This document shows positions 33,457-61,221 of a stretch of 64,000 nt of DNA, piece by piece (the stretch's first letter is position 1; every line of letters begins with the position of its first letter). The notes below the pieces were generated by a model, which saw nothing but the letters and a program-made list of their open reading frames with translations, did no database searches and was not told where the DNA came from. The translations under genes and the position numbers were made by a program. This DNA comes from Bacteroidota bacterium (GTDB lineage: Bacteria; Bacteroidota; Bacteroidia; Chitinophagales; Saprospiraceae): NCBI GenBank assembly GCA_029781865.1, contig JAKOVW010000053.1, forward strand, positions 1 through 64,000, given 5' to 3'.

Positions 33457-36400
33457 TTATTCTGTGACCAGCATTTTTCTGGAAACGGTGTTGGATTGAA
33501 AATCAATCTGATAATAGTATACTCCTGAATGATTCAGTTGATCTTTATTCAGCATATACTCATTATATCCTTTATTCATTAATTTTCTATCGCGGAAATA
33601 TACTTTACCGGTAATATCATAAACTGTAATTCCAACTTCTCCTTCTGCTGGCAATAACATGCCTATAGCCGTTTCACGGTTCCATGGATTAGGTTCATTT
33701 TGCAATACTACAAATTCAGAAGAACTGCTTCCTTTAAAATTAAGTATGAGCTGACCTTCATTCCCTGACTCTTTGACGACAGATACTGTTGGTGTGATGG
33801 TCGAATTTACAATCAGTGCTTCTGAAATCCGTACGTTTTGTTTTGCTTTAAATCTCAGCCTAAGAATCCAATCCGCATCCTTCATATTGCCATTCCAGCT
33901 GAAAGTCAATTTACCTTCCTGAGCATGTAACAAGGAATAATTATCATCTCTGATTTTCAAGGCATCGTTACCTTGAACTCCTTCCAACTCCAGTTGATTC
34001 AGATCCCACTGCAACGTAAACTGCATACCTTCATATTCTGAACCATTGGCAACCCGAAGTACCAATTCCTGAGATTCATCTCTTGCCAGTTTTTGTTCAT
34101 CTACCTGCAATTCCATGGTATTCCTGCTGCGGCTTATATTTGAATTAAAGCCTTTTGTTGCAGCGGAAATATTTACATCTCCTGTTTTTACAGCTATGAA
34201 GTTCAAATTCATATTGCCATTCAGATGGTTTATTTCAAAGAACTCCGGATAATTTTCATCCAATGCCGTATTGACGCTATTAAATTGATAGGATTGATCA
34301 ACAAATCTCCAACTGGTGTTTCCGGGCACTTCGGTAATTACGCCGAGAATTAATCTTCTCAAATCAGAAACATCCTTTGCGGTAATGGTATGACTCCGGT
34401 TCACATCGGCTGCAATCATTTTATATGGTGAAACGAATGGCTCAATTCCTAGAATATGTCTCTGAATTTTAACAATATCAGCTGTGGTCACTCCATTCAA
34501 CCATCCCTCATTTTTCTCCGGCTTAATGACCATGTTATTTCCATTAGGTACTTGTTGGAACGCATACTTACCATTTTCATCAGTAAGTATTCCACCGACA
34601 GCTACATTTTGTACTCCATCACTTTTTTCCGTTGCAATCAATCCCGTTACATTTGAATTCTGAGTGGTTTGAGGACAGAAGCCTGTATTATCCTGAACAT
34701 CTATAAACGTTCTGCAGAATGACGTATTTCCATTGACATCGGTTACCCATAATTCTACTGTTCTCGTACCAATGCTATCACAATTGTAAACGCGGAAATT
34801 ATTCCGAACATCAGCTGAAAAACTCAGGCGTACCGGATATCCGCAATTATGATACGAACCTGCATCAAAATCCTTAGCCCAAACAGTATCGATAGCCGTT
34901 TCCGGAATTCCATCTCCATCCATATCCATTGGTGTCAAATTGGTTGATAAACCATTCAAACAATATGCAACCGGTGATTTACAATTTCTAAGGTCCAGTG
35001 TGAAATGTTTTTTAGCCGTATTGCCACAGCGATCTTCAACCTCCCAATAAACGATGTGTCTTCCAAGAGGCCATGTACCCTGCGCTACATTTTCACCGAT
35101 TCCTGCTCTCACCACATCAATCGTTCCATCACTATCCAAATCAATTTTATACGTATACAACATTTGATTAGCCGGAGTGCAATCATCTGAAGCACTTACA
35201 GAAAAACTAACCGTCATTGGTCTGCAATTAATATCATAACTACAAACAATGGTATCCTGTGTGATTCTCGTAATTATCGGATCCACATTGTTTCTGACCT
35301 TAATATATTGTACATGTGACCAGATAATAACATTATCATATTTATCTCTTTGGCACCAATCCAGGATTTTCCATGTTCTCAAAATTTTAAAACAAGGATC
35401 ACCGGGAATCGTTGGTGCAAAAATCTGATCATCATAACTATAACCAATCAAACTGCATTCATCATCATTCACGATCGGTTTGCTGTATGGAAAACTCAAA
35501 CGCTCCGGAATGAGCGCATCCGGATCACAAATTCCAAGTGTGTCCAAATCAAGTGGCCATATAATTGAGTCTCCATTCAAAGGATGCGTATTCACTACAG
35601 TAATTATCTGCGTGCAGATGTCACTTTGATTCCCTTGTCTGTCTTCCGCTCTGAAAGTCCTGACAATATATCCGATACCACACTGGTTGATGTGACTGGT
35701 ATCTATAGTTTCAATCATAGTTGGAGGACAATTGTCAGATGCAATTCCATCGAATGGATGTCCACCAATGATATGATAATATCTTGGATCGATCACAATG
35801 GTATCCCGGTCTGCTGTATCGGTTACAATTTTGCCGAAAACTTCAAGGTGATTATAATCAATGTCAAAGCGGCAATCTACTGTGATGTCAGGCAAGCAAA
35901 CAATTAAAGGTCTGTCTTTATCCTGCACTTCAACATTGACCATACATATTGCTTCATTACCACTGCGGTCTACTGCCTTGAATGCAACCATAATCATGTG
36001 CCCAACATCTTCACAACAGAATCCAACTTCAGGGCCCCAATCATCAGCACCTGTTCCGCCACAAAAATCGGTATCCATCCGGCGAACTTCGAAATGATCC
36101 AATGCACATTCATCAAAACTTCCGTCATCAAAAACATCAGCAGGAACCCAATTATATCCGGAGTGATTTAAAGCGACAACTGTATTCCGGTCACAAACTG
36201 CAACCGGTTCTGTTTCATCCCTCACATGAACAATCATCCAGTATTCCGTCAAATTATAACAACCGTCATACACTCTGTAAAATATAGTATCCTCTCCCAC
36301 CGGTATTTCAGCATAGCCTCCATTTTTGTTTTCCAGCACACCACCCGGATAGATTATATCTACTCTTAAATTGTTGTGGCAATAATCAAAAGCCTGGATA

Positions 36401-37878
36401 CCGGGAAGTAATACGGTGGCTGTACAATTTCTTCTTCCTGTAGTAGCATCGAATCCATACGGTGCATGAGTAATCACAGGTCCGTATGTATCTCGAATGA
36501 TAATGATTTGAACTACGGACTGCACAATTTCTGTATTACACCACCATTCTCTTACTGTCCAGTTCCGCATAATTTTATGTACACAATTAATCTCTCCAAG
36601 ATCGATGTCTTCGTACTGAATTAATAAATTGCAATCTAATAAAATATTCAAAGGCCAGATTCCCAGATGTTGATCATTGGAAAGCGTTGTCCATGGATAT
36701 CCCGTTTCCAATGGACTGGGATGTCCATTCTCATCGAGCAAATAAGGATAGTTGCATTCAAGAAAAACCGTCTTTTCCGGTAAACCGATATCATTTGCTG
36801 ATATTCTTTTTACATAAATTGTTTGCGTACATTGATCGGTATTCCCATTACTATCCGTAATTAATAAATCCCGGTGAACCGCTTTGAGGTAGACCTCATT
36901 GCAATCATAGTAATCTACTGTTTCATTTGTCGTTTTTACTGTATAGGGACTACAATCTGATCCACTCCATGCCGATGGAAAATCGATATTAAACAAATAG
37001 CAATCCGTAACATAATCCCGGCAAATAATAGTTGGGGACAATTTATCTTCTACTTTAATATCACTCCAGCAAGAATTGCCAGTTACTGTATTGAGTACAG
37101 TAGCCACGATATGTTGATTCAGGTAATGCGAATCAATTGGATTGGGTACCGGTACATTATAATTTGTCAGATTGACCACGAAGTCACAATAACAATAATT
37201 ATCTCCTGTCAGCAACATTTGAGGTGTTATAGTCGCCTGACAATTTGCATCCAGAGAAACATTGATATTCTTACAAGATAAAGCAATATTCGGGTCACAT
37301 TGATCAAGATTAATTCCAAACTCTCCTACTGCAAATCCGAATGCATTGGGATCTACTGTGATTGTAATTGAAGTTAAATTGCAGGCACCGGTTGTATAAA
37401 ATGCAAATCCGGTTGCGCCGCTGACGCCATTCACCATAATGGGCCCCGAGGAGGTTCCATCGTTTGCATCTGCCTGAACAGAAAATGTGGAAAATACATT
37501 TGGCTCTACATAGCAATAAAATGCATTTGTTTTAAATGGAAGTGTAATGGTTATTTGAGATCCATTCATAAAATAGACATCACCTGTATAACCATTAGAC
37601 CAGGTTTGCCATCCGTTTCCAATCCGGTAATGACTTGTAAGGCTTGAAAAATCAAGGGTTTTATTACAATATGAAGGTGCGAAAACCTGATTTTCCAGAT
37701 TAAACAGAGTTCTGTTATCAGGCGAAAAAGGAGTCATAGAGTAACCGCCAATTGTTGGCGGAGGAGCATTCGTACCCAGAGTTCCGTCAAAAACAATTCC
37801 TGCATATGAAGAATTAAATCCAGAGCTTAGAATTAGAAATACGAATACAGAGAAACACAGCGAAGTAGTAATTTTCAT
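33457..37878 (-). CDS. Giant T9SS surface protein 1: HYR-like array, dockerin-like, cohesin-like
   Basis: This 1473-residue protein has a signal peptide (1-26). Residues 27-195 form an N-terminal domain unlike its neighbours', with alternating Gly/Asn-rich strands. From about 195 to 1073 run repeated Cys-rich HYR/Ig-like modules (NVSLDANCQATITPQM, VEDKLSPTIICRD, AVCDRNTVVALNHSG, FCCEDVGHMIMVAFKAVD, VDCRFDIDYNHLEVFG). Residues 1074-1253 contain a dockerin-like pair of helices (TTADIVKIQRHILG, and DVNRSHTITAKDVSDLRRLI with its Ca-loop-like start). Residues 1254-1388 are a cohesin-like beta domain (GMQFTLQWDLNQLELEGV, GKLTFSWNG). Residues 1389-1473 are the T9SS type A sorting domain (NEPNPWNRETAIGM, VYDITGKVYF). 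It is most likely a cell-surface or matrix protein, the downstream partner of a tandem duplication with the next gene. Confidence 0.88.
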   Translation of the reverse strand: MKITTSLCFSVFVFLILSSGFNSSYAGIVFDGTLGTNAPPPTIGGYSMTPFSPDNRTLFNLENQVFAPSYCNKTLDFSSLTSHYRIGNGWQTWSNGYTGDVYFMNGSQITITLPFKTNAFYCYVEPNVFSTFSVQADANDGTSSGPIMVNGVSGATGFAFYTTGACNLTSITITVDPNAFGFAVGEFGINLDQCDPNIALSCKNINVSLDANCQATITPQMLLTGDNYCYCDFVVNLTNYNVPVPNPIDSHYLNQHIVATVLNTVTGNSCWSDIKVEDKLSPTIICRDYVTDCYLFNIDFPSAWSGSDCSPYTVKTTNETVDYYDCNEVYLKAVHRDLLITDSNGNTDQCTQTIYVKRISANDIGLPEKTVFLECNYPYLLDENGHPSPLETGYPWTTLSNDQHLGIWPLNILLDCNLLIQYEDIDLGEINCVHKIMRNWTVREWWCNTEIVQSVVQIIIIRDTYGPVITHAPYGFDATTGRRNCTATVLLPGIQAFDYCHNNLRVDIIYPGGVLENKNGGYAEIPVGEDTIFYRVYDGCYNLTEYWMIVHVRDETEPVAVCDRNTVVALNHSGYNWVPADVFDDGSFDECALDHFEVRRMDTDFCGGTGADDWGPEVGFCCEDVGHMIMVAFKAVDRSGNEAICMVNVEVQDKDRPLIVCLPDITVDCRFDIDYNHLEVFGKIVTDTADRDTIVIDPRYYHIIGGHPFDGIASDNCPPTMIETIDTSHINQCGIGYIVRTFRAEDRQGNQSDICTQIITVVNTHPLNGDSIIWPLDLDTLGICDPDALIPERLSFPYSKPIVNDDECSLIGYSYDDQIFAPTIPGDPCFKILRTWKILDWCQRDKYDNVIIWSHVQYIKVRNNVDPIITRITQDTIVCSYDINCRPMTVSFSVSASDDCTPANQMLYTYKIDLDSDGTIDVVRAGIGENVAQGTWPLGRHIVYWEVEDRCGNTAKKHFTLDLRNCKSPVAYCLNGLSTNLTPMDMDGDGIPETAIDTVWAKDFDAGSYHNCGYPVRLSFSADVRNNFRVYNCDSIGTRTVELWVTDVNGNTSFCRTFIDVQDNTGFCPQTTQNSNVTGLIATEKSDGVQNVAVGGILTDENGKYAFQQVPNGNNMVIKPEKNEGWLNGVTTADIVKIQRHILGIEPFVSPYKMIAADVNRSHTITAKDVSDLRRLILGVITEVPGNTSWRFVDQSYQFNSVNTALDENYPEFFEINHLNGNMNLNFIAVKTGDVNISAATKGFNSNISRSRNTMELQVDEQKLARDESQELVLRVANGSEYEGMQFTLQWDLNQLELEGVQGNDALKIRDDNYSLLHAQEGKLTFSWNGNMKDADWILRLRFKAKQNVRISEALIVNSTITPTVSVVKESGNEGQLILNFKGSSSSEFVVLQNEPNPWNRETAIGMLLPAEGEVGITVYDITGKVYFRDRKLMNKGYNEYMLNKDQLNHSGVYYYQIDFQSNTVSRKMLVTE

Positions 37879-37901
37879 GTTTAATGAATTTATAGTATGA
37901 G

Positions 37902-37918
37902 AATACCTCGCTAAATCC
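37902..37918 (-). promoter_or_regulatory. Shared leader motif, copy 1
   Basis: On the - strand this reads ggatttagcgaggtatt, 24-40 nt upstream of the start at 37878. Related sequences stand at the same distance before the next two giant genes (43455-43471 and 56578-56596). It may be an operator, an initial transcribed region or a translation-control leader. Confidence 0.4.
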
Positions 37919-37958
37919 GAAACGGACTAAAGAAACATGTATTGGGTGAAAGCCAGTG

Positions 37959-37966
37959 CAAACTTA
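37959..37966 (-). promoter_or_regulatory. -7 promoter element (TAAGTTTG) of surface protein gene 1
   Basis: On the - strand TAagTTTG lies 81 nt upstream of the ATG at 37878, giving a leader of about 75 nt that would include the motif at 37902-37918. Confidence 0.45.
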
Positions 37967-38016
37967 ATACTATTTTGAATATATTATAATTTTTTATATG
38001 TTTTTTTTTGAATGAC

Positions 38017-38045: not shown

Positions 38046-38076
38046 ACCGATGGTCGTAATTTTCCCGTTTGCTTTC

Positions 38077-41000
38077 TTATTTTGAAATAATCATTTTACG
38101 GGTTATTGTATTTGTCAGATAATCAACCTGATAGTAATATACTCCTGAATGGGGTAATTGAGATTGACCTAGGACATACTCATTATAGCCTTTGGCCATT
38201 TCTCTTTTATCCCTCATGTATATTTTTCCGGTAACATCATAAATGGTAATATTCACTTCACCGGCATCCGGAAGTAACATACCAATAGTAGTTTCGTGAT
38301 TCCATGGATTTGGTTCGTTTTGCAGAACTGTAAATTCCCTGGCAATGATTCCCTTGAAATTCAGACTCACCTGACCTTCCTCCTGGTTATTTTTTACAAC
38401 AGATAGCGCCGGAGTAACGGATGAATTAAGGGTTAAGGCTTCTGAGAGTTTAGCAGGCTTCTTTGCCCTGAATTTCATTTTCAAAATCCAATCGCCATTG
38501 CTCATCTCACCATTCCAGCTAAAACTCATCTTTCCCTCTGCAGTCCTTGCAACAGAATAGTTGTCCTCCCGGATTTTTAATTCTTCGTTACCCTGAATTC
38601 CGACCAATTCTATTTGATTCAGATCCCATTGTAAAGTAAACTGCATCCCGTCATAAGCGGCGCCATTTGCAACATGGATATCCATTTCAGCAATTTCATC
38701 ATTTACAAACGAATGTTCATCCATCTGCAATTCGAGTATATTTCTGCTGCGGCTCATATTTGAATTAAATCCCTTGGTGGCAGCAGAACCATTTACGTCA
38801 CCAGTTTTGATTGCAAAGAAATCCAGATTCATATTGCCATTCAACGGATTGATTTCATAAGATTCCGGAAAGTTTTGAGACAGAGCAGTGTTGATGTCAT
38901 TAAATGAATACAGCTGGTGAACAAATCTCCAACTGGTATTTCCGGGAATTTCAGAAGTTATACCGAGAATCAATCTCCGCAAATCGGACACATCCTTTGC
39001 CGTGATAGTCCGACTCTTATTGACATCTGCCGCAATCATTATGTAAGCAGAGTTTAATGGTTCAATGCCCAATATGTGTCTTTGAATTTTTACAATGTCC
39101 GCAGTCGTTACACCATTGAGCCAACCATCTGTCTTCGTCGGCTTGACCGTAATTACATGACCATTCGGAATCTGCAAAAATGAATATTTGCCATCACCGC
39201 TTGTTCTGACACCATTCAATCCGGAATTCATCAGATCAACTGTGACATTTTCGACGCGATCACTTTTCTCTGTTTCAATCACACCTTCCACATTTGAATT
39301 TTTAATATTGGATGGACAGAAACCCGTGTTATCCTGTACGTCAATGAATGTGCGGCAAAAAGAAGTATTGCCATTGATATCTGTTACCCATAATTCAACT
39401 GTTCTCGTGCCAATGCTATCACAATTATAAACTCTGAAGTTATTTCTGACATCTGCTGAAAAACTCAACTGAACCGGATAGCCGCAATTGTGGTAAGAAC
39501 CCGCATCAAAATCCTTGGCCCAAACAGTGTCTATTGCCGTTTCCGGAATACCATCTCCATCCATATCCATTGGAGTCAGATTGGTAGAAAGCCCATTCAA
39601 ACAATACGCAACAGGCGATTTGCAATTTCTCAAATCCATGACAAACTCTGCAATGGCTGTATTGCCGCATCTGTCTTCTACTTCCCAATGTACAATGTGT
39701 CGTCCAAGCGGCCATGTTCCTTCTGCAACATTCCCTCCAATAGCGGCCCTCACAATATCTATTGTACCATCGCTATCGAAATCGATTCTATAAGTATACA
39801 ACATTTGATCAGCCGGCGTACAATCATCATTTGCTTCGATTGAAAAACGGACGGGTATAGGTCTGCAATTGATATCATAACTACAAACCATAGTATCCGA
39901 AGTCACCCGAATGATAATTGGATCAACCAGATTTTTCACTTTGATAATCTGATCATGTGACCAGATAATAATATTTCCATCATAATCTCTTTGGCACCAG
40001 TCGATGATCTTCCAGGTTCGGATGATTTTAAAACAAGGGTCACCGGGAAGTGTAGGACTAAGCACCAAATCAGAGTAACTTGTTCCAATCAGACTACACT
40101 CATCATCATTAAATGTTGGGAAATTATATGGTGTATTTAAATGTTCAGGTATTAGCTCACGCGGATCGCAGATACCTGCTGTATCCAAATCCAAAGGCCA
40201 GGTAATATCATTGATATCGAATGTATCATGGTTCACTACTGTAATATACTGATAACAATAATCACTCATATTACCTTGCTGATCGCTGGCTCTGAAAATT
40301 CTGACCAGATACCCGATGCCACATTGATTGATATTACTTGCATCAAAGGAATCCAATATGGTTGGAGGACAATTGTCTTGCGCGATTCCATCAATCGGAT
40401 GCCCCTCTATAACATGATAATACTTAGGATCTATGATAATTTTTTCACGGTCTGCGGTATCCGTAACCATTTTACCGAATACTTCGAGATGATTATAGTC
40501 AATATCAAAACGGCAGTCAACCGTTATATTAGGCAAACAGGTTATTAATGGTCTGTCTTTATCCTGTACTTCAACATTAACCATACAGACTGCTTCATTA
40601 CCACTTGCATCTACAACTTTAAGTGCCACCATAACCATTTTGCCTACATCATCACAACAGAATCCAACTTCAGGACCCCAGTCATCCTCACCTCTGCTTC
40701 CGCAAAAATCGGAATCCATTCTGCGTACTTCAAAATGATCCAATGCACATTCATCAAAACTTCCGTCATCAAAAACTTCTGCAGGTACCCAATTATAACC
40801 GGAATGATTTAATGCAACTACAGTATTGCGGTCACAAACTGCTACCGGCTCTGTCGCATCTCTTACATTGATAATGATATAATATTCCGTTAAATTGAAG
40901 CAACCATCATATAACCTGTAATAGACTGTATCAATTCCTCCCGGTAAAGTTGCATAACCTCCATTCTGATCAATCAAAATACCACCCGGATAACTAATGT

Positions 41001-43706: not shown

Positions 43707-46700
43707 TTAGTCAATTAATATCATTCTCCTGAATAAACTATTCTTATCCGTGGTCAACTGGTAATAATAAATTCCACTTCGATCCAACTGGCTCTTAGAG
43801 ATTTCAAATTCATGATAACCTTTAGTATAGAATTTTTTATTCTCATACACTACTTTACCATTCATATTGATTATACGCATTGTAATCTCTGCATTTTCCG
43901 CAGTCTGGAATGGTATGATGGATGTATGGTTAAATGGATTCGGAATGTTCTGATACAAACTCAATCCTTCCTGCTCGGAAAACTGATCCACAAAGTCCAA
44001 TTTTATACTAGCCACATCTCCATTTCTATAATACGCTTCAGAATCAAATCCATCTTTGCTCATTTCCAATACTTCAGAAAGTTCAGCAGTTTTAATCATG
44101 CGTATTTTTAATTTCACTTTCCATTGATTGCCATCGGCAGTAGATTTGATATAGGATAACCGGATGGTATTTTTATCCGGAACCAGATAAAACATATCTT
44201 CTTTTATCCGGCTGTCTTCATCTATTACAACCCCAAGCAGCGTTGCTCTGGATGGATCCACATGTAAACCAAATTGCATTCCGTCCAATTCACTGAACTG
44301 TGAAAGATCCAATTCCACCTCGTATATCTGTTCTTTCGAAAATACCTGGTTTCTTGACACAAGCAATATTGAACCAGCATTTCTTGACTCAGATTTATTG
44401 GAGAATTGTGTTGCATCATTAGAATCATCAACATCACCCATTTTAATTCCGGTGAAATCAAGGTAATAATTTTTCTGTATAGCCGGGATGGTATAATATT
44501 CCGGCCAATTTTCATTCAATGGATCCTGCTTATCTGCAAATTGATAATTGGACAAAATGAATTTCCAGGATGGCGATTTTGCAAAATGATCCGTTTTACC
44601 CAATATTAGTTTCCGGATATCCACAATATCTGCCGCGGTCACTTTTCTGTTGTTGTTGACATCTGCTGCAATAAATTTCAATGGATCTGTAAATGGTGCA
44701 ATACCCAGTATATGTCTTTGGATATGAATAATATCTGCTGTCGAAACGCCATTTACCGGATTGATATCGTGTTGTGGTTTGACCACATATCTGCCTCCGT
44801 TAGGCATTTCCGGAAAACGATAGGAGCCATCCCTGTTGGTGACCACCATTCCGGACAAGCCTTCATTCAGCATAACTTCAACACCGGGCATATTTGTCCT
44901 TTTCCTGCTGCTGACCAATCCCTTTACGATAGATGTAAATGTAGGACCACAAATCGTATCCTGATCTACAGCCTGTAGGAATGTGCTGCATGAGTCAATA
45001 TTTCCGGCGATATCCTTAAAATATACTTTTATAGAAGTCGTGTATTCAAAATTGCGGATCGAATCACAACAAATCACTCTCAAGGTATCATTAAAGTTAT
45101 TGAGATTGAATGAAGCCATGATTAATGTTGAATCCGTACAATTATCTTTCTTTTTGGCTATAAAATCATTTGCATTAAACGAAGCACAACCATTATCCTT
45201 AATTTTCTTTACCACCTTGATACATGTGAATTCCGGAGCAATAGTATCAATAATTGTAATCTTGATGGTTTTAACCGTTTCATTACAACAATAATCGACT
45301 GCTTTAAAGGTTACAAATGTTACTCCCGGCGGATAAAATCCAGAAGCATCTTCAAAATCATTTGCACCGTAAGGCGAATCATTGGTAATGATAATCGTTG
45401 CGGAATCACAATTATCCACAAAAGCTTTCATCACTACGAAATTATTACAAGTAGAATCATTTGAAACCTGAGTGGTATCATGTACTCCCAAAATATTTGG
45501 CGGAATAGTATCCGTCCTCCAAATAGATTGCGTAAACATAAAAGTCTGACCACTGCAACTATCGAAAACAGTCCACTTCCTGTCAATTACACAGTTTCCG
45601 CTTTGCTTACATTCATTTGAATCAGAGAATGTAACAGCCAGTTTAGCACAGGTAAATCCCCTATAGTCAAATTCTGGCGAGCCGGTTCCTGTCGTATCAT
45701 TAACATCATCACATTCAAACGTCGAAATCGGAGAATCCGGCCAGTGAATATCACTCTCCTGTATAGGATCCGGATTAATGATTGTGATTAATTGCGTACA
45801 GGAATCACTGTTTCCGGATGCATCCTTAGCTACAAATTTACGCATGATAGTACCTATACCACAAACATCCTGGTTGCGTATATCCGTTTCCTTATACGTA
45901 ACTCCCGCACAATTATCTGTTACGATGGGCAAACCAAACTTACTCAATGTGTCTGTGTTGGTACTACACAATAACAATGTATCATGAGGACAAACAATTT
46001 TTGGAGGTATGCTTTCCAACACAGTGACTTTTACGGTACAAGTTGCTGTATGATTACAACTGTCTTTAGCAGTAAATACCACGAATGTCATACCTACCGG
46101 AAATACAGAAGGTGCATTATTGGTAAAGGTTACAAATGTATTGCAGCTGTTATTGAGTTTCGGATTATTCAACTGTAATGCTTTACCACAAGTATTCGGA
46201 TCTGCATCAACAATAGTGTCATTTGGACAGGTAATTGATGGAGGATCCTGATTTTTTGTAATAATGTATTGATTGAATTTCGGATGCTGACTCAGACTAC
46301 ATGAATTATTTGCAGTCCAGGTGCGCTTGATGGTTTTGCATTCACCACCTCCTACTATTGTATCCGTAAAACTAAAGGTCACAAAACCACAATAGTCTTT
46401 TTTCAGTGTAGGCTGACCAGAGAATTTTGGATCTAATGTAGGAATACAGGTTACCGACGTAAATGTATCTTTTGGCCAGGTAATGTCCGCCGGATTTAAA
46501 TCCACATCTCTGGTTATCTTCTGAACATGGAAGATCGTTGTATCATATTTTGGCTTACAAATAAATCGTGCACTCCAGTTCCTTTCTACGATATAACAAA
46601 CTTCACCATTGGTACTTCCTAGCGTATCATCTTTAAAGGTGAATTTAATACTATCACATGCAGTACAATTGGCTTTCGGAAATCCATTTAATGAATCCGG

Positions 46701-55700: not shown

Positions 55701-56549
55701 ATACTGATCGTCATCGGAAATATCCATATCTCCTAAACCAGCCTTACCGACAAAATCAGAATATCTGCAATCCAAAGGATCAATTCCACTTAGATCACCG
55801 GCTTGTATTCCTGCATTTTTTAAATCTATGAATACATTGGTGGCGCCTAATTTAGGATTTGAAACATAGATGCCAGTAGTGCCCGCACTACCCAATCCCG
55901 TTCCGGATTTGACAAAAGCAGATGAATACAAAAGCTGTTTGGATTGATTCCATGCAACGCCCCAAACAGAACCGGTTTGATTCTGCATGGCTATCTTAGA
56001 CATCGGACTTGTTGAGTTAAACAAAAATGGTAATTGCACCAATGTTGGTGCAGTTGGAGAACCTCCGGATTTTACAAAACATGTAGTATACACATTGGCA
56101 GTATTCGGATTACATGCACTTGATTTATCCTGTATGCCGAATTTGATATCGCAGGAAGGTGTAGTGATAAACTTAATATCATTTGCACCTTTGCTGGCAT
56201 ACTCATAGCCTGAAGGTTTTTGCAATTCCAGTTTATAGGTTTTTAAATTTGTAAGTCCTGATACCTGGAAATTACCATTTGCATCCGTAGTTGCCTGGGC
56301 AACCAGTTGATTATTTACGGTAAATACTTTTATGATGGCCTGGGACTTTGTTCCATCACCGGCATCTGAAATTCCATTCAGATTGAGATCAATGTAAACG
56401 GTTCCCTTGATTTCTCCCGGGACCGCATTGCATTGTGCATGAATAAATGGAGAGCTGCTTCCGGTTAAAAGAAAAGCCAGACTTATTTTTCTAATAAGTT
56501 GATTAGTAGAAAAATGATTTGTAATGTGTGTTAGTATTTGATTTCTCAT
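43707..56549 (-). CDS. Giant T9SS surface protein 3 (~4280 residues): SdrD-B, DUF11, HYR-like, dockerin-like, cohesin-like
   Basis: The frame is open to 56606, but the ATG at 56549 precedes a signal peptide ending PFIHAQ, giving about 4280 residues. The approximate order is: SdrD-B-like domain (40-116, VYIDLNLNGISDAGDG); a region describing a possible propeller (150-543); a second SdrD-B domain (551-709, YVWLDENENGIQDPDE); an eight-proline hinge (711-718); six DUF11 repeats of about 155 residues (720-1686), each ending in an acidic DEDD-type joint; a PKD-like domain (1806-1890); Cys-rich HYR-like modules (1893-2756); tandem modules of about 174 residues (2760-3433); more HYR domains (3440-3863); dockerin-like helices (3930-3986); a cohesin-like domain (about 4060-4186); and a T9SS type A domain (about 4191-4280). 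It is probably a very long surface fibre or adhesin. Confidence 0.87.
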   Translation of the reverse strand: MRNQILTHITNHFSTNQLIRKISLAFLLTGSSSPFIHAQCNAVPGEIKGTVYIDLNLNGISDAGDGTKSQAIIKVFTVNNQLVAQATTDANGNFQVSGLTNLKTYKLELQKPSGYEYASKGANDIKFITTPSCDIKFGIQDKSSACNPNTANVYTTCFVKSGGSPTAPTLVQLPFLFNSTSPMSKIAMQNQTGSVWGVAWNQSKQLLYSSAFVKSGTGLGSAGTTGIYVSNPKLGATNVFIDLKNAGIQAGDLSGIDPLDCRYSDFVGKAGLGDMDISDDDQYLYVTNLYNKSLVIIPTNQPTAANVMEIKIPDPGCNSGDYVVGAVEYHNNHLYIGVTCTAETTKNKDDFYFHIYEYDLLTRTFNIIFSTSFAKEFWLAHPQNERPISQWLTNIAFADDNYMVLGIADRTGHTYCDNVYPLTGQSGDILMLWKDNGIWKLENGGVAGSRIGSGTSHYEGPGHGEFFGDDFWTIGPGLHPENSLGSVAVLNGTQEVISTVFDPIYESFAGGMHKYSTLNGKKKSAIQLYNRDNSAYGKSSGLGDLAIACPPLPIEIGDYVWLDENENGIQDPDEKALTNIKISLFDSKCNLIGTTLTDATGHYIFNSTNVDLNQDGQKDELQPFETYYLLVNDPAFNQASGRMIISKDTFKITSKHALQGIELSDNNAVIYTSSNCSQFKGYPYIEIQTGGTGQNNYSFDIGFVKEKVIDIPPPPPPPPSVKKYDLALIKKVVGTGSVKSGDLVTFNITIYNQGVEAVNQFTVTDYVHDYFTFEANQNPGWILSGNKARFIQNAVLNAGQNVTITIKLRLNQNAKANAIINTAEISEMRNETGALITDVDSTPDEIEDNDKGGVPNSITDNIIDNNAIDEDDHDRESLPIADLALINKTVNTLPIKLNETVTFEMEVFNQGNVTAGSFSLVNYIPAGFKFEPSLNPAWTLNGNNATIKITDAIQPGSSKKIPIRLILKSQNLTNLIDVAEITAFWDVNNNLLKDFDSTPDNNPTNDKGGQLYTATDNVINDDGTIDEDDQDPASIDIFDLALILTTDQVNPVKKNQDVLFHITVCNQGNIPAQNTGVVEYLPEGLTISPFDNHGWFLLGGVYRNTISSVIAPNQCATIDFLARVKPEATINNLLNRAEITQAFDTNLRDLSTRDFDSNPDYIIDNDPGGVVNTSTDNIFTGNGIIDEDDADPAALTIMDLALIKKYTSPGSLKYKGTCSFNIQVFNQGNTTVGNVEVTDYLPAGFTLAQSAVIQGWVLSNGKASITLNGSILPGSSSSVDITLQNTSDVLAASLINVAEISKVYDTNNADISAYDFDSTPDKNPSNDAGGVVNSITDNAISLDPAVDEDDADPAGIPVFDLALRKTLSVKKSSYWKGDTIDFKIEIFNQGNVIAKDIEITDYLDSRYVFSAAINPGWSLVQVNQVNFHPGITLAPGTSYSTLIHVIIGDISTAETIPNYAEISKAHDNVGNDAKDFDSTFDSLNTNDKGGTPGSVTDNEINDHGDIDEDDHDGAESSPKNFDLALIKDIDHLIVTRDELLNFEIMIVNQGLVTATEIEVVDYLPEGLLLEDPDWVMGSSSNGITTAYHLMNEVNGRLPQGGLKPRDTLKFYIKTRVDPAQVAGVIVNRAEISHALNKDLIADEDSSPDTDFLNDAGGVVFENSDGSSANFDLAGIDDEDDEDPAGIIIVDLERSIACQCLDNATNSSNGQFLDELSFRSVSGDRWFIFDVDGLYDPSSAAPPAAPTPFVTGPGGFTLYESPLGDGTSVYFIQGIHVEGIGYSIILSNQNGVKLNSGVNKCFYEDPVLLKAQNNVCSGQTVRYEVKKVPNASYSWTLSGGGTILTNPSSNAVDVIWTGNVGSTYTLTIDVDLPGACYNPIELPVTIGSSSGPVSCIGSLQVSLDKNCEATVTPQMVLIGGPYDYTSYAVMIKNKDGSLVPNNKLYYEHVGKELTATVINVCSGNSCWVNITVEDKVKPKIKCVNDTIDCTLMKSYIIPFISDNCDPNPTRILNDEIIVNTPCDLLYSKIVTRTYTVKDKSGNISLPCQMNIYLKRIQLDSIVFPDSLTREKLNPLICSRFATDSIGHPLPSVTGIPTYRGALAWPNTDNKYCDYTASYEDIEFPNGKDCVKKILRNWKFTIWFCNYFEQRTYPQLIEIVDTTAPTITCPYDITATTNSFTCNANVWIPMPKVFDSCGQVLRVDLSYPGGFIHDFRGQYVTLPVDNNTLTFTAYDLCYNHSECSFEVNVYDRTPPVAICDQQTVVTLDRFGEAWVAANVFDDGSYDDCHLKYMQVRRMTSPNVPCGYTDQFFHDSVQFCCQDIGKEIMVMFKVVDAHGNENTCMVRVEVQDKTIPHISCPHDVTIECDYHYNLNDLSEFGKPIVSDNCNVDFREVVDPQINQCREGYIDRIFIAGNSFGEDVCVQRITVINSHPFAEKDIIWPYDFDTTTCDANGLLPETLRDTFGYPILHEDFCDLVGVSYEDNIFHFINGSDACYKIIRTWKVINWCRYNVVGPFIPVDQAVWTHQQILKIHNTVAPKFTSGCRDTVFNIIDTTCNGGNAYLVATYTDDCTPVNEMAWEYHIDLNSDHIEDISRYGVGPKIDASGFYPLGKHTIKYVCEDKCGNKTVCERTFEIVNKKAPTAYCIAGLAVSLVPMDLNGNGSVDAELVTIWATDFDRGSYHPCGYPLTFSLGRDTSVKSVTYDCDSIGRRMVTLCVTASNGTQDCCNTFIDVQDNNNVDLCNCVKFPPNLTITDCSQNTDPVVIHSEPTVGNCTNCTPNGIFHKDSIVKNIPNTCFVVYRTWTVKFICAGEPDKTFDRTQIITVTTDLQNSDIQWPSDSVIVDNCSGSIDTSIIGEVPRFCVNGGNIMLMYSDKEIRREQTCIFYERTWTVASKCAPSQSYSFRQVLKVLEAAGVRYIVPGDITVTDCKKILAPDSLNGYPKTNCLCDKFTHSFKDSVVNNIPNTCKVIYRKWTSTFNCPPDVSGTFKGTQIITMRVNLTLSDIEWPSDSIHVDNCRGSVDTLLIGGIPKLKKDFCGFVSIHFSDQIISQNDTCKLIHRTWVVANDCSTAPNKQQFTFVQTLKVTKPNGPQVDFPDDITVTDCKKPLLPDSLNGFPKLNCPCNSFTHTFTDSLVLNIPNTCYVVYRKWTSTYNCPPEVSGTFKGTQVITIRINLNPNDIKWPSDSVVVTNCAGSVDTGLIDNIPKLMKDYCGYVSFHFTDQTILSNDTCKVIHRTWVASNDCTSGQNKQQFTFVQALKVTNPKGPRVTFPSDLTITDCKKPFLPDSLNGFPKANCTACDSIKFTFKDDTLGSTNGEVCYIVERNWSARFICKPKYDTTIFHVQKITRDVDLNPADITWPKDTFTSVTCIPTLDPKFSGQPTLKKDYCGFVTFSFTDTIVGGGECKTIKRTWTANNSCSLSQHPKFNQYIITKNQDPPSITCPNDTIVDADPNTCGKALQLNNPKLNNSCNTFVTFTNNAPSVFPVGMTFVVFTAKDSCNHTATCTVKVTVLESIPPKIVCPHDTLLLCSTNTDTLSKFGLPIVTDNCAGVTYKETDIRNQDVCGIGTIMRKFVAKDASGNSDSCTQLITIINPDPIQESDIHWPDSPISTFECDDVNDTTGTGSPEFDYRGFTCAKLAVTFSDSNECKQSGNCVIDRKWTVFDSCSGQTFMFTQSIWRTDTIPPNILGVHDTTQVSNDSTCNNFVVMKAFVDNCDSATIIITNDSPYGANDFEDASGFYPPGVTFVTFKAVDYCCNETVKTIKITIIDTIAPEFTCIKVVKKIKDNGCASFNANDFIAKKKDNCTDSTLIMASFNLNNFNDTLRVICCDSIRNFEYTTSIKVYFKDIAGNIDSCSTFLQAVDQDTICGPTFTSIVKGLVSSRKRTNMPGVEVMLNEGLSGMVVTNRDGSYRFPEMPNGGRYVVKPQHDINPVNGVSTADIIHIQRHILGIAPFTDPLKFIAADVNNNRKVTAADIVDIRKLILGKTDHFAKSPSWKFILSNYQFADKQDPLNENWPEYYTIPAIQKNYYLDFTGIKMGDVDDSNDATQFSNKSESRNAGSILLVSRNQVFSKEQIYEVELDLSQFSELDGMQFGLHVDPSRATLLGVVIDEDSRIKEDMFYLVPDKNTIRLSYIKSTADGNQWKVKLKIRMIKTAELSEVLEMSKDGFDSEAYYRNGDVASIKLDFVDQFSEQEGLSLYQNIPNPFNHTSIIPFQTAENAEITMRIINMNGKVVYENKKFYTKGYHEFEISKSQLDRSGIYYYQLTTDKNSLFRRMILID
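46250..48320 (-). repeat. Tandem in-gene modules of ~523 bp (174 residues)
   Basis: Within giant gene 3, the phrase ITDCKKPFLPDSLNGFPK and its variants recur with a regular spacing near 46700, 47225, 47748 and 48270. Each module also carries VVYRKWTSTYNCPP-like, WPSDS and HRTWVASNDC-like segments. At least three full periods are present, with strong amino-acid similarity, indicating internal duplication. Confidence 0.8.
51480..54390 (-). repeat. Six DUF11 repeat units (~465 bp each)
   Basis: Within giant gene 3, the motif FDLALIK and variants recurs six times (near 54370, 53905, 53429, 52948, 52470 and 51980). Each unit contains an FNQGN-type strand and ends in a DSTPD...NDKGG...DEDD acidic joint, which may bind calcium. 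The units are diverged at DNA level. Confidence 0.85.
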
Positions 56550-56700: not shown

Positions 56701-57160
56701 TAACTTGTTACATAATAACCAAAAAAATATTAAAATAAAAATAATATGAATAAACTATTCGCATAAAGGATTCTTGAACTTTAGTTTATAAATACTGAAG
56801 AATTATATAGAATTAATTAATATAAATGGCTATGATTCAGAACTTTGTAAAATAAAATCAAATAAGAAGCTGTGTAAATCTAAACATGATAATGCCTCTT
56901 TATTTATATTATCAAAGACCATGGTAAAACAATTGCTGAGCCTCCCATTACATCTAAAATTATATAGATAAAGGCTTTTTTGAAAGCGAATGGCACAAAA
57001 TCAAGTTAAGGCTACTTATAGATTCAATCCAGTATAATTGTACCCATAGAACTATTTTTCCTCCAGATTATACGAAGCTTAAAGGTTCCTGAATGAGTTC
57101 AAACGGGAAGCACTTTCATCTGAATGCGCTTTTGTTGCATTTCAAAAAATCTGTGGAATA

Positions 57161-57192
57161 AAAAAACCGGCCTTTTGCAAAGCCGGCTTTTA
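57161..57192 (-). terminator. Hairpin terminator of surface protein gene 4
   Basis: On the - strand AAAAGCCGGC pairs with GGCCGGTTTT around a short loop, followed by a T-run (complement of 57161-57166). It is located 25 nt past the stop at 57217. Confidence 0.8.
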
Positions 57193-57216
57193 AGAGACAT
57201 TATTTAACCTATAAAC

Positions 57217-60200
57217 CTATTCGATCACGAACATTCTTTCTGATGCGGACCCAAACGGTGTTGTTAATACATAGTACATCAATCCATTCATTCTAAAATC
57301 TTTCTTCGTCATTTTTAGTTCATTCCTGCCTTTCTGACAAGTATACTCCCTGGTAAATAACCGCTTACCGGTTAAGTCATAGATCTGAAGACTTACATTG
57401 GCCGTTCCAGGTAAATCAAAACGAATCGTTGATTCTTCTGAAAATGGATTAGGTTGAGCAGGATAAGTTATTAATCCAGATAATGCTTTCTCATTTTCCT
57501 GCTCACTGCGTATTAATAATGCATGCGCTTGTTCATTTAAATAAACTTCACTAGCAAAACCAGTCAAAGTGTGTAGTAATGAGTTTTTGTTTAGTGTCGA
57601 TTTATTTCCATTCAAAACAATGCTAAACATCGTTTCTCCGGCTTTGATCAATTTTGAATGGGTCAGCGCCGTTGCAATCTTAATCTGTTTATCTGTAAGT
57701 AGATATTCATCAGAGGAGAGATCAAGACTTGCAGGTTTAATTTCTTTAATGCTCCACTGATCATTATCCAAAAGGAGTCCAAGTTGAAAACCATCAAGGT
57801 TCATATCTTCAGCAGACAGTATTTCCACTTCCAATTCATTTCCGGCTTCTCTGTTACCAATTTTATATACCCATGGTATGGAATTATTGGTCCTCGAAAT
57901 CGAACCATTTCCAAAATGCACATCCGCTGATAAATCCACATCCCCCGTTTTGATACCAATAAAATGAGCCTGACTCAGTTTGTCCTGTAACTGATCTTTA
58001 TTAATTACTGTTAAAGCATCCCAGGGTTGGGTTGGATTTGCAAATTGATAATCTGCTTTCACAAATTTCCAGATTGGAGTGTTGTTGGGAAATTGCACGA
58101 TGGCACCAAGTATAGCCTTTCTCAGATCAGATACATCCTTTACGGTCACACTGTTAGATCCATTGACATCGGCTGCCAATATTTTGTATGGCGAAACCAA
58201 ACTCTTGATTCCCAATATATGTCTTTGAATTAAGACGATATCCAATGTACTTACCCCATTTGTAATGTTGTCTGTTTTCTCCGGTTTAATATAGAAATCG
58301 TTTGCAACAACATTATGAAACGCATAGTTGCCCTGATTGTCCGTTACCGTTTGATCCAGACTATTTCCTGAAGGATCATTCAGATTAACGTTGGTACCCG
58401 GAAGAGCATCCTGATTTTCGCGATGTATTCCTCCCGAAATATTCAGTCCAGGATTTGTTCCCGGACAAACGTGATTGTTGTCCTGAATGCGTACTGTAGT
58501 TTCACAATAATCCTGATTGCCATATTCATCGGTAACATACATGCGCACAGTTTTGGTTACCGTTTGTTGTCTGTTTAAACTATCGCAGTTGTATACCCGG
58601 AATGCATCGTTGACATCCGGAGAGAATGAAAATTTCAAATCTTTAGCTGAAGTACAATTATCATAACTTCCAAGATTCAGGTCTTTTGCCCAGACTGTAA
58701 CATTTCCTGATGTTGGCATGACTACTGTGACCACTCCATTATGACAATAAGGCGTTGGCTTTTTACAATCTTTCAATGTAAAAATCTGATCACAGGTAGA
58801 AATATTTCCACATTGATCTGTCAGTATCCACCTTAATCTGTGCACACCTACCGGCAATACTCCGGCAGCAACATTTCCACTTATTACAGGTCCGAAACTA
58901 CCATCATTGTTTTCATCAATGCGGTAAGACCAGATTAAATTCTGTGGCTCGGTGCAATCATCAAATCCGGATCCCTGCAAATTATAGCTTGCCATACACT
59001 GTCCGGTATTTACATTGTAAAATGAACTCTGGTCACATATCTCAACGTCCGTGCAGGATTGAATTACCGGTGGTTCAGAATTTTTAACGGCAATGACTTG
59101 AGTATATTCCCAATATCCCTGATTGGTATTGCGATCATACTGACACCAATCTATTACATACCACTTTCTTAATATTTTAAAACAAGTACTATCTAAAACG
59201 GTCAACTTTGTATCCGTATAATTAGCTGCAATCTGCGCACAATTAACATTAAAATAAAGTGGATAACCTGTTTGGTCCGGATGTGTAGAAACATTATTGC
59301 AGGAATAAATTTCCAGATATGGCGGCCAGTAAATATCAGTAACACTAAACGGGTGTGTATTCACCACAGTTATCGTTTGAACAGCAATACTCGATAGTCC
59401 TTGTTTGTCAACCGCTGTAAATATCCGTTGAATAGTTCCTGAGTTACATTTAATTCCTTTTACAAAGGTCTCTGTATATGTGACTTCACAATTGTCATAC
59501 GCATAGCCATCAATACCGGCAACGTAATTTTTATTTGCATAAAACGGATCTTTAATGATGATTTTTTTGCGTTCAGCTTCACTCAATCTTATTTTACCGA
59601 ATACACTCAAATCAGTGTAGTCGATCGGAAAATCACAGGCTACGGTAATATCTGTAGGAGGAATGATTACTGGCGGTTCTTTATCCTGTACTGTTGCTTC
59701 TATCATACATGTATTCCGGTTACCATAATAATCTACCACTTCCAAAGCAACCATGACCACTTCGCCTACATCAGCGCAACAAAAACGCACATACGGTCCG
59801 AATACATTGGTTCCATTATTACACGGATCATCCATTCTTCGTACCAGGAAAGAATCTATTCCACAGTTATCAATAGAATGATCATCGAAGGTTTCCGCAA
59901 ATACTTTGGCCGTACCGTCTGCACCCAGGGTCACTACTGTTTTTTGATCACAGATTGGAATCGGTGCAAGATTATCTACTACGCCAACTTCCAGAGTACA
60001 TTCTGAAACATTATCACAGGCGTCTGTAAGTTCGTATACAATCCATATCCTTCCTTCCGGAGCACCTCTCAGATAAAAACATTTCTGATTGAAATCATAA
60101 ACGATATAATCTTTTCCTTTTACATTGGGATTTCCGGTTATCGGATCCTGTGTCATAGAAAATACATCGTAGGTCCAGGTATTGCAATCCTGCACTGATT

Positions 60201-61221
60201 CAGGTGGCGGCAGTTTACCGTCACTTGCGCAGGAATAAAGTTGCATACCAATCGTCAGATCTTTAGGACAAGTAAATATTGGTGCCTGATCATCGGCTAC
60301 TTTTATACTTTGATTGTATTCGGTCAAACGCCCGGTACACCAGTTTAAAATAATCCAGCGTCTGATAATTTTAAACGTATTTCCGCATGTCGCTATCTTT
60401 AAATCGGTATAACTGGCGGTTAGTGTAGAGCATCCGTTTGGTACAGGCCATCCGGTAAAGTCCGGTGATGGATTTCCATTGGGAAGCCTCGGAAAATTCA
60501 TATCACATGTTAAATGAGGCAAGTCAAAATTATCATAGTGATGTGGATACACCAGGTCAACTTCAGTTGGTCTGAGTATGCAAATAGTTTCTGAACAATG
60601 CGATGTATTTCCCACTTCATCCTTTGCGGTCCAGCTTCTTACAATTTTCTTAAAGCATACACTGTCGCAATTATAATTAAATAATTCATCGGTATAAGTC
60701 AGCTTCACAGTAGAACATGCATCCCAACCGGTTACCTCGTAAGTGTTGGGTCCAACATTATCTACTTTCACAGAATATGAGTCACTAATTGGAAATTCCA
60801 GATCGTAAGGATCAATGCTGGTTCCACAACGTATCGTGAAATTGTGACATTCCATTTGTGGTGGAAACTTATCCTCTATTAAAATTTTACCCCAGCATGA
60901 ATTGCCACTGGGAAGATGCCAGATTTTATAACTGTACACCTTATTAATATCGGAATTATCAAAAATGAGATCCGGCTGTTCATTTCCATTGGAATAATAC
61001 ACTTTGATGCGATAGTCATACGGACTACCGACCAAATCTTCCAACACCATGCGCGGTGCAATGGTAGCATAACATAAAGTGTCCAATGATATATGGACCA
61101 GATCATTGCAAGCCATAGGAGGGGTCATCATCTCCTTACTGTTTTTTGCGGCGACTTCAAAAGTCACCATGCTTGCGGCACAGTAAATCAACCATCTCAA
61201 AGTGATAAAATAGCGGTTCAT
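57217..61221 (-). CDS. Giant T9SS surface protein 4: HYR-like array, dockerin-like, cohesin-like
   Basis: This 1334-residue protein has a signal peptide of about 25 residues (MNRYFITLRWLIYCAAS). From about residue 35 it runs directly into the HYR-like array shared with the other three (LDTLCYATIAPRMVLEDL, GNSCWGKILIEDKFPP, CDQKTVVTLGADG, FCCADVGEVVMVALEVVD, VACDFPIDYTDLSVFGK). A dockerin-like segment lies at about 990-1045 (STLDIVLIQRHILG, DVNGSNSVTVKDVSDLRK). Its loop is the closest of the four to a real dockerin Ca loop. A cohesin-like domain follows (about 1128-1227, LDGFQLGLLLDNDQW), then a T9SS type A domain (about 1251-1334). It lacks extra N-terminal domains and may represent the minimal version of the family. 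It does not share the leader motif of genes 1-3. Confidence 0.87.
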   Translation of the reverse strand: MNRYFITLRWLIYCAASMVTFEVAAKNSKEMMTPPMACNDLVHISLDTLCYATIAPRMVLEDLVGSPYDYRIKVYYSNGNEQPDLIFDNSDINKVYSYKIWHLPSGNSCWGKILIEDKFPPQMECHNFTIRCGTSIDPYDLEFPISDSYSVKVDNVGPNTYEVTGWDACSTVKLTYTDELFNYNCDSVCFKKIVRSWTAKDEVGNTSHCSETICILRPTEVDLVYPHHYDNFDLPHLTCDMNFPRLPNGNPSPDFTGWPVPNGCSTLTASYTDLKIATCGNTFKIIRRWIILNWCTGRLTEYNQSIKVADDQAPIFTCPKDLTIGMQLYSCASDGKLPPPESVQDCNTWTYDVFSMTQDPITGNPNVKGKDYIVYDFNQKCFYLRGAPEGRIWIVYELTDACDNVSECTLEVGVVDNLAPIPICDQKTVVTLGADGTAKVFAETFDDHSIDNCGIDSFLVRRMDDPCNNGTNVFGPYVRFCCADVGEVVMVALEVVDYYGNRNTCMIEATVQDKEPPVIIPPTDITVACDFPIDYTDLSVFGKIRLSEAERKKIIIKDPFYANKNYVAGIDGYAYDNCEVTYTETFVKGIKCNSGTIQRIFTAVDKQGLSSIAVQTITVVNTHPFSVTDIYWPPYLEIYSCNNVSTHPDQTGYPLYFNVNCAQIAANYTDTKLTVLDSTCFKILRKWYVIDWCQYDRNTNQGYWEYTQVIAVKNSEPPVIQSCTDVEICDQSSFYNVNTGQCMASYNLQGSGFDDCTEPQNLIWSYRIDENNDGSFGPVISGNVAAGVLPVGVHRLRWILTDQCGNISTCDQIFTLKDCKKPTPYCHNGVVTVVMPTSGNVTVWAKDLNLGSYDNCTSAKDLKFSFSPDVNDAFRVYNCDSLNRQQTVTKTVRMYVTDEYGNQDYCETTVRIQDNNHVCPGTNPGLNISGGIHRENQDALPGTNVNLNDPSGNSLDQTVTDNQGNYAFHNVVANDFYIKPEKTDNITNGVSTLDIVLIQRHILGIKSLVSPYKILAADVNGSNSVTVKDVSDLRKAILGAIVQFPNNTPIWKFVKADYQFANPTQPWDALTVINKDQLQDKLSQAHFIGIKTGDVDLSADVHFGNGSISRTNNSIPWVYKIGNREAGNELEVEILSAEDMNLDGFQLGLLLDNDQWSIKEIKPASLDLSSDEYLLTDKQIKIATALTHSKLIKAGETMFSIVLNGNKSTLNKNSLLHTLTGFASEVYLNEQAHALLIRSEQENEKALSGLITYPAQPNPFSEESTIRFDLPGTANVSLQIYDLTGKRLFTREYTCQKGRNELKMTKKDFRMNGLMYYVLTTPFGSASERMFVIE

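Follow-up and report, generated by a model that had tools for sequence, protein, structure and literature searches.

The window studied here, a 64 kb stretch of contig C31 (JAKOVW010000053.1, positions 1 to 64,000) from a Saprospiraceae genome of 4.52 Mb in 93 contigs (GCA_029781865.1), carries four adjoining open reading frames (ORFs) on the minus strand, which encode proteins 1 to 4 of 1473, 1785, 4299 and 1334 aa. Their coordinates agree with those in a preliminary description of the stretch. These four genes belong to a large family whose products are surface proteins secreted by the type IX secretion system (T9SS) and share a C-terminal assembly cassette. In all four proteins the cassette spans about 410 residues and consists of a CnaB-like domain, a dockerin, a WxF...KxGDVN segment, a cohesin and a T9SS sorting tail. 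We tentatively read the cassette as part of a T9SS-secreted, partly cellulosome-like surface system, in which the dockerin and cohesin of a cassette would pack against each other in cis and a separate protein with several cohesins would act as surface scaffold for the giant proteins.

The ending of all four proteins in dockerin, cohesin and T9SS tail was confirmed with profiles independent of the window. From a search for related loci, the best 80 of 527 confirmed stretches were used, giving 78 loci. Two of these, L056 and L075, are probably copies of L055, with which they share organism title, identity, span and E-value, and did not enter profiles A3 and A6. Window-free profiles, built from 76 public-collection loci and excluding any window sequence, found all five parts, in order, in each of the four proteins (domain E-values at Z = 100,000). 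The E-values range from 6e-30 to 4e-26 for the dockerin and from 5e-30 to 6e-19 for the tail, and are 2e-32 (protein 2), 2e-30 (protein 1), 2e-16 (protein 3) and, weakest, 4e-7 (protein 4) for the cohesin. The profiles A4 (cohesin) and A5 (dockerin) use 29 of the 80 rows. The cassette sits at the very C-terminus in 76/76 related loci, which were selected as full-length matches (0–9 residues beyond the match). Across 80 aligned cassettes the order is the same and the spacing near-constant, with 149–174 residues from D171 to PNP and a short linker of 12–17 residues between segment and cohesin. In the protein 2 cassette, the CnaB-like domain occupies residues 1–58, the dockerin 57–120, the WxF/KxGDVN segment 121–178 and, after the linker, the cohesin 186–320 and the tail 322–410. 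The domain pattern read earlier from the four proteins is thus upheld.

General domain models score the same regions lower. On the four whole proteins, Pfam Dockerin_1 gives 14.9–21.8 bits, all under the curated cut-off of 22.9. A six-frame search of the genome places proteins 4 (26.5), 3 (25.7) and 1 (23, with neighbours) above it, and does not list the protein 2 dockerin. Pfam Cohesin (PF00963) stays below its cut-off in proteins 1 and 2 and is not listed (E up to 1) in proteins 3 and 4, and the 16 places that this model finds in the genome include none in the four proteins. Same-genome paralogues exceed both Pfam cut-offs: 15 of the 16 cohesin places pass, 13 of those 15 in dockerin ORFs, and 25 of 27 Dockerin_1 places pass, three of them only with neighbours. 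Reading the weak Pfam scores as the absence of a cohesin is rejected by the family profile and, in proteins 2 and 3, by the fold. Among solved structures, profile A5 matches the ScaB dockerin (1.2e-9), and A4 matches the cohesins 3l8q (3.3e-8) and NagJ (0.003). The sorting domain model TIGR04183 is above its cut-off in proteins 1–3 and below it in protein 4; the family profile finds the tail in all four.

AlphaFold2 (AF2) models were made for the cassettes of proteins 2 and 3 with an 80-row alignment, for protein 3 from cassette residues 1–324, leaving out the tail. The protein 2 cassette reached a predicted local distance difference test score (pLDDT) of 94 and a predicted template modelling score (pTM) of 0.78, with dockerin helices at residues 69–79, 88–94 and 104–114. 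Among the top 50 Foldseek matches in the PDB, cohesin-bearing chains, judged by title, made up 29 for protein 2 and 45 for protein 3. Single-cohesin chains had target-normalised template modelling scores (TMt) of about 0.45–0.64. The best match of the protein 2 cassette was the NagJ cohesin 2w1n. Most other matches were antibody, CD4, pilin or adhesin chains; for protein 3, the pilin BcpA took the first four ranks. A cohesin-like nature of the beta domain is thus supported by sequence and, in the models of proteins 2 and 3, also by fold.

The model of the protein 3 dockerin unit plus cohesin has a pLDDT of 93 and a pTM of 0.90, and the block between segment and cohesin (residues 181–190) a pLDDT of 65. 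Because the high pTM extends across this low-confidence linker, AF2 implies a confident placement of the dockerin unit and the cohesin of protein 3 within one chain, most simply through a contact. By the standard pTM formula with assumed errors, an error of 10–20 Å between dockerin unit and cohesin would give 0.54–0.67, and one of 2.5 Å 0.87–0.92. The 0.78 of protein 2 is consistent with the 0.74–0.79 expected if the pair is rigid and the tail loose. It is conceivable that the contact is swapped between chains, which would give the same AF2 picture as a contact in cis. The preliminary description had named fold and pair prediction as checks. A beta domain unlike cohesin, which would have spoken against it, is not what the models of proteins 2 and 3 return, and the protein 3 model predicts a confident placement of the dockerin unit against the cohesin, within one chain.

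The two calcium loops of the dockerin are conserved to different degrees. Loop 2 is complete bar three cells in the 80 aligned cassettes (D95 in 80, N/D97 in 78, S/D/N99 in 80, T/S/N/D103 in 79, D106 in 80). In loop 1, ligands are present at position 1 in 71, at position 3 in 67 and at positions 9 and 12 in all 80, and position 5 offers a possible calcium ligand in 8/80 and none in 72/80. The degenerate first loop noticed in the four proteins is confirmed over these aligned cassettes. Of the 27 Pfam dockerin matches in the genome, 24 begin at profile position 10 or later. Two complete Ca2+ loops, as in type I dockerins (PF00404), are not found; since the first is incomplete, the domain is dockerin-like rather than a textbook type I dockerin. 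In the GDVN segment, D171 is present in 80, N/D173 in 70 and S/D/N/T175 in 80 cassettes. Measured against the ligand positions of known calcium loops, the spacing of residues 171, 173 and 175 is that of first-half ligands. Based on this alignment, we suggest that the D-x-N-x-[SDNT] half-loop of the segment may complete site 1 of the dockerin, as a composite first calcium site. Four residues are invariant in 80/80 cassettes, namely K168, G170, D171 and Q223, the last of which aligns with the D of NCDF in cohesin 4ums, presumably a dockerin contact site. R187, found in 78/80 cassettes, is located in the low-confidence linker.

The cassette is not confined to the window. At E ≤ 0.001, the family profiles count 33 places for the dockerin and 29 for the cohesin across the genome. 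Of the dockerin places, 27/33 share their ORF with a cohesin place, and 27/29 cohesin places are in dockerin-bearing ORFs, the other two lying within one dockerin-less ORF. Further clusters of cassette genes are present on contigs C79 (four) and C74 (three). The four window genes account for 4 of the 33 dockerin places, so the cassette, described earlier as a feature of the four-gene array, is genome-wide, and the array as a unit of its own was rejected.

The cargo of these proteins was scanned with Pfam on 32 of the 33 dockerin ORFs, with list cut-offs from E 1 to 0.001; one ORF of 5130 aa was outside the scan, and some ORFs were truncated where a contig or stretch ended. The recurrent domains are HYR and Ig-like; DUF11 and SdrD_B are present in window proteins, SprB occurs in one ORF, and in several ORFs nothing beyond the cassette was recognised. 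The lists for these 32 ORFs contain no family that degrades polysaccharides or binds cellulose. We infer that the cargo is mostly structural or adhesive and not enzymatic.

Several individual cassette loci of the genome vary this pattern. A protein of 2007 aa (L117, G000:C43:94900-101300) carries ice-binding-like, C-type lectin and HYR domains, and its cassette (L013) has 72% identity to that of window protein 2. In L131 (G000:C79:85600-89500), ORF 904-2634 encodes 577 aa with an AhpC/TSA redoxin, a dockerin and a T9SS tail, and a weak cohesin match (5e-4) follows the dockerin. L128 (G000:C75:29500-39000) is a run of four short dockerin genes (324–588 aa); the 446-aa protein is a signal-like stretch plus the cassette and little else, and the 324-aa protein ends directly after the GDVN segment. 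In L132 (G000:C80:76800-82400), the adjoining ORFs 438-2669 and 3010-5067 have 20–45 residues between the dockerin/GDVN segment and the sorting tail. Having no room for a cohesin, these two proteins are candidate scaffold clients lacking a cis cap.

The putative scaffold, a protein of 1053 aa, is encoded on contig C51, directly downstream of a cassette gene. It combines three cohesins with SprB repeats and a CHU_C tail, and has no dockerin. Its cohesins match at E 1.8e-15, 0.52 (weak) and 8.6e-6, of which the first passes Pfam at 48.4 bits, and in the eight other genomes of the genus the second domain reaches E 3.5e-4 to 0.021. The gene that follows is PorP/SprF (6.6e-52). The poly-cohesin protein is present at full length in 9/9 genomes of the genus (the other eight at 40–55% identity) and in G010, from another genus (33%). 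The order cassette gene, poly-cohesin gene, PorP relative is kept in 9/9 genomes of the genus.

Outside the genus, 40 loci, one per genome, were hand-picked from the better matches to profile A7 among 150 listed; matches near a contig start on the plus strand (e.g. G082, G033, G111, G118, G091, G039) and further genomes were passed over. In 23 of these 40 genomes, the 5 kb upstream of the poly-cohesin gene contain a dockerin gene in the same orientation, and a cassette cohesin was detected in 20 of the 23 dockerin genes and not in 3. A rough chance estimate, assuming about 13 dockerin genes in 5 Mb, gives well under one upstream neighbour per 40, although clustering of surface genes would raise it. 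The poly-cohesin ORFs of the 40 genomes have from 2 to at least 10 cohesins. A PorP relative was found in 26/40 fetched stretches and a small (260–279 aa) cohesin-plus-tail gene in 10/40. The separate poly-cohesin protein is a better scaffold candidate than protein 3. The latter had been proposed as a very long scaffold, a role that is unsupported, as protein 3 carries one cassette like the remaining proteins.

A second kind of locus (L175 in G080, L176, L178, L189, L198, L199) pairs a small cohesin-plus-tail gene of 264–274 aa with an adjacent ORF in which the cohesins number from 6 to at least 10; in L175, L189 and L198 a dockerin gene lies upstream. In the genome of the window, L136 (G000:C75:98500-105000) has a Pfam Cohesin match at C75:103124 of 24.4 bits, just above the cut-off, in an ORF of 1256 aa without a dockerin place. 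This ORF, possibly a second cohesin-bearing surface protein, also has in its later part a match to the region of the poly-cohesin protein that holds the SprB repeats.

The two kinds of cohesin were compared in a FastTree phylogeny with 249 cohesin pieces, made up of 187 from poly-cohesins, 52 from cassettes and 10 solo, from which pieces outside 90–170 residues or above E 0.001 had been dropped and in which 115 of 245 inner branches are open. The cassette kind requires 2 changes on the tree versus a shuffled mean of 47.6, and the poly kind 5 versus 55.4. These few changes indicate that cassette and scaffold cohesins are largely distinct lineages. The cohesin types I and II of cellulosomes are likewise distinct.

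Profile searches covered the order, and a pattern scan of related loci reached wider. Among 30 genomes, the dockerin profile was positive in 17, namely 9/9 of the genus, 8/10 of the rest of the family and 0/11 of other families of the order; the cohesin profile was positive in 18, one of them with a single place in another family. In 120 genomes of the family at E ≤ 1e-10, both profiles matched in 106, cohesin only in 3, dockerin only in 0 and neither in 11, a co-occurrence set aside as independent proof since A7 cross-matches cassette cohesins. As a control, the Pfam dockerin and cohesin models match in 2 and 1 of 14 well-known genomes. By title, the records with the closest cassettes (best 80 of 527) are mostly Saprospiraceae, with some Bacteroidetes/Bacteroidota, Chitinophagales, Sphingobacteriales, Lewinellaceae and Aureispira. 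Two cassette loci (L069 and L073) are in records titled Thermoanaerobaculia MAG.385, distant from Bacteroidota, and represent either mis-binned contigs or transfer.

The surface system that we tentatively favour would work as follows. After export, the dockerin would fold with Ca2+ and pack onto the cohesin of its own chain, so that the cassette would stand as a stiff, closed stalk with the long Cys-rich outer part on one side and the sorting tail on the other. Together with PorP/SprF, which we take to be its outer-membrane partner, the poly-cohesin protein would be held at the outer membrane. By capturing dockerins in trans, it could tether some of the giants to a cell-bound scaffold, like enzymes on a cellulosome. 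A more specific version, in which a family-wide, switchable and calcium-dependent coat has nearly every dockerin capped in cis by its own cohesin and handed over to the membrane-tethered scaffold, and in which the dockerin has the composite first site, is unlikely as a whole.

A number of points weigh against this system. If the cis pair were tight, capture by the scaffold would have to compete with it. The pairing of dockerin and cohesin is a prediction, and the cis packing is a deduction from pTM alone. The pTM of 0.78 for protein 2 fits a uniform error of about 5 Å between all parts as well. Two designed Ig-like proteins, 8bl6 and 8bl3, are hit by profile A4 too, at about 1e-5, and outrank most cohesins. 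As a largely separate lineage, the poly-cohesins may bind another partner or none. G010 has the poly-cohesin gene and the PorP relative only, with no dockerin gene in the 4.4 kb visible upstream. An upstream dockerin gene was also not found in 17/40 loci outside the genus (3 of the 17 with less than 1.2 kb visible), and as the loci were hand-picked and contig-start matches skipped, 23/40 is not a random rate. For the reason given above, the co-occurrence in 120 genomes is not an independent test either.

The fixed order and near-constant spacing of the cassette in 80 rows (D171 to PNP 149–174), the 27/33 dockerin places that share an ORF with a cohesin, the pTM of 0.90 for the protein 3 pair, and the 2 changes that cassette cohesins need on the 249-piece tree would also fit a stalk in which dockerin and cohesin bind only within the chain, as a calcium-stiffened clasp, and the poly-cohesin protein is a separate adhesin with other partners. 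We consider this somewhat unlikely, as it leaves unexplained the poly-cohesin gene beside a cassette gene (9/9) and near a dockerin gene (23/40), and the two C80 dockerin genes that go almost straight from dockerin and segment to the sorting tail. At the other extreme, both folds could be kept as structural spacers ahead of the sorting tail, with no binding between them. Such a role is consistent with a cohesin part that is far less conserved than the dockerin part (1.95 versus about 3.2 bits per column) and with the degenerate loop 1, and cohesin-like domains are reported in adhesion proteins without cellulosomes (PMC6030884). Mere spacers would hardly account for a calcium loop 2 that deviates in only 3 cells over 80 rows, the invariant Q223, the high pTM across a loose linker or the conserved poly-cohesin neighbour, which makes this explanation very doubtful.

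The preliminary description had proposed that the four proteins assemble, head-to-tail or laterally, into a fibre, sheath or biofilm matrix in which protein 3 would be a very long scaffold. In such an assembly, dockerins would bind the cohesins of neighbouring giants. As each chain carries both halves and the paralogue dockerins are alike (53–81% to that of protein 2 within the window), cross-pairing is conceivable, and would follow if the contact predicted in cis were swapped between chains. The AF2 models imply a placement in cis, and the linker of 12–17 residues favours cis as well. Because the array holds 4 of 33 dockerin places and is not set apart from the other 29, a fibre of these four, scaffolded by protein 3, is not specially supported, and we regard it as highly improbable. 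The interpretation given in that description is, overall, partly supported.

Cohesin-dockerin pairs are known chiefly as joints of enzyme complexes. The clostridial cellulosome (CipA, ScaB) has the same cohesin fold, dockerin sequence and a multi-cohesin scaffold-like protein, and in cellulosomal X-dockerin pairs a beta domain lies directly ahead of the dockerin, as the CnaB-like domain does here. A multi-cohesin scaffoldin in the same organism, by which cellulosomes are recognised, has its counterpart in the three-cohesin protein, with the reservation of its weak second cohesin (E 0.52). Unlike in the clostridial cellulosome, there is a T9SS sorting tail, the clients are mostly HYR-like giants and not glycoside hydrolases, dockerin and cohesin share one cassette on 27/33 dockerin ORFs, and no cellulose-binding family is listed in 32/33 dockerin ORFs scanned. 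The system is therefore like a cellulosome in part, and is not one by the features tested. The non-cellulosomal cohesin of Clostridium perfringens NagJ, the top fold match of the protein 2 cassette and among the better sequence matches, is borne by an enzyme and pairs with the dockerin of another protein. The preliminary contrast with classical cellulosomes, where the two domains usually lie on different proteins, was too strong, since CipA carries dockerin and cohesin domains in one chain. So do ScaO and ScaP of Bacteroides (Pseudobacteroides) cellulosolvens, with one cohesin and one dockerin per chain; they differ by peptidase and PPC modules and by being inside a true cellulosome (PMC5590126).

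Among the descriptions accessible in part, the closest precedents are those of Candidatus Stygibacter and of a Saprospiraceae metagenome-assembled genome (MAG). Ca. Stygibacter (Cloacimonadota) has dockerin proteins and a tandem-cohesin scaffoldin-like protein with inferred cell attachment via a conserved C-terminal domain; its dockerins are on hydrolases, its scaffoldin has the carbohydrate-binding modules CBM2/CBM3, and the available text describes no cis dockerin-cohesin cassette (PMC8542988). Saprospiraceae MAG096 from Posidonia banquettes, of the same family as our host, has cohesin-related genes interpreted as a sign of cellulose degradation, and no cassette, T9SS link or gene order is described in the accessible sections (PMC8547425). 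Anaerobic methanotrophic (ANME) archaea have non-cellulosomal chains in which a single dockerin is accompanied by as many as five cohesins, and which differ in being archaeal and, as far as the excerpted account goes, in having no fixed one-to-one cassette (PMC9012536). Bacteroidetes genomes are said to lack cellulosomal parts (PMC5831590). No description of the cassette or of the poly-cohesin locus was found among the top-listed matches of the open-access literature, most subscription papers being beyond the reach of this search. In the genome studied here, dockerins recur at 33 places on giant surface proteins, one cassette each, and a poly-cohesin gene next to PorP/SprF is conserved. Should the pairing hold, it would provide a testable rule for the arrangement of many T9SS giants on the cell surface, and a natural source of cis-capped protein joints.

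Outside the cassette, the four proteins (Table 1) differ in their domains. The long Cys-rich HYR-like array ascribed to all of them holds for cysteine, which makes up 3.0–3.5% of the proteins, and less so for HYR, which is above the Pfam cut-off in proteins 1–3 only, and as single stretches in proteins 2 and 3 only; the last 410 residues have 0–1 Cys. Signal peptides were judged by eye. The 4299 aa of protein 3 are counted from a TTG; its first ATG is residue 20, at position 56549, and heads a plausible signal peptide. Relatives of proteins 3 and 4 are found in the same order and strand within about 3.2 kb in 6/8 other genomes of the genus, and on different contigs in the remaining 2/8.

Table 1. 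Coordinates of the four genes and of their cassette parts in the window.
Feature	Position	Strand	Evidence or remark
Protein 1 (P0001), 1473 aa	33457..37878	-	Signal-like N-terminus (by eye), Cys-rich partly HYR-like region, C-terminal cassette
Protein 1 CnaB-like domain	34516..34653	-	Profile 4e-7; 7-residue gap versus protein 2
Protein 1 dockerin	34330..34521	-	Profile 6e-30
Protein 1 WxF...KxGDVN segment	34156..34326	-	Profile 1.8e-19
Protein 1 cohesin	33733..34134	-	Profile 2e-30 (sequence only)
Protein 1 T9SS type A sorting domain	33466..33723	-	TIGR04183 and family profile
Protein 2 (P0002), 1785 aa	38077..43434	-	Cassette is first AF2 model
Protein 2 CnaB-like domain	39136..39294	-	Family profile
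Protein 2 dockerin	38950..39141	-	Profile 4e-29
Protein 2 WxF...KxGDVN segment	38776..38946	-	Family profile
Protein 2 cohesin	38350..38754	-	Profile 2e-32 and Foldseek
Protein 2 T9SS type A sorting domain	38086..38340	-	TIGR04183 and family profile
Protein 3 (P0003), 4299 aa	43707..56606	-	SdrD_B, six DUF11 stretches, HYR, long Cys-rich region, cassette
Protein 3 CnaB-like domain	44772..44927	-	Family profile
Protein 3 dockerin	44589..44777	-	Profile 4e-26
Protein 3 WxF...KxGDVN segment	44418..44585	-	Family profile
Protein 3 cohesin	43992..44387	-	Profile 2e-16 and AF2/Foldseek
Protein 3 T9SS type A sorting domain	43716..43973	-	TIGR04183 and family profile
Protein 4 (P0004), 1334 aa	57217..61221	-	
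Protein 4 CnaB-like domain	58279..58443	-	Family profile
Protein 4 dockerin	58102..58284	-	Profile 1e-26
Protein 4 WxF...KxGDVN segment	57922..58092	-	Family profile
Protein 4 cohesin, most diverged of the four	57535..57879	-	Window-free 4e-7; 1.2e-27 with profile including protein 4
Protein 4 T9SS type A sorting domain	57229..57471	-	Family profile; under NCBIfam cut-off

The genes that flank the array have an ordinary look, as read by eye. Elsewhere in the window, the minus-strand ORFs 14988-18506 (1172 aa) and 1974-3194 (406 aa) have signal-like starts, also by eye.

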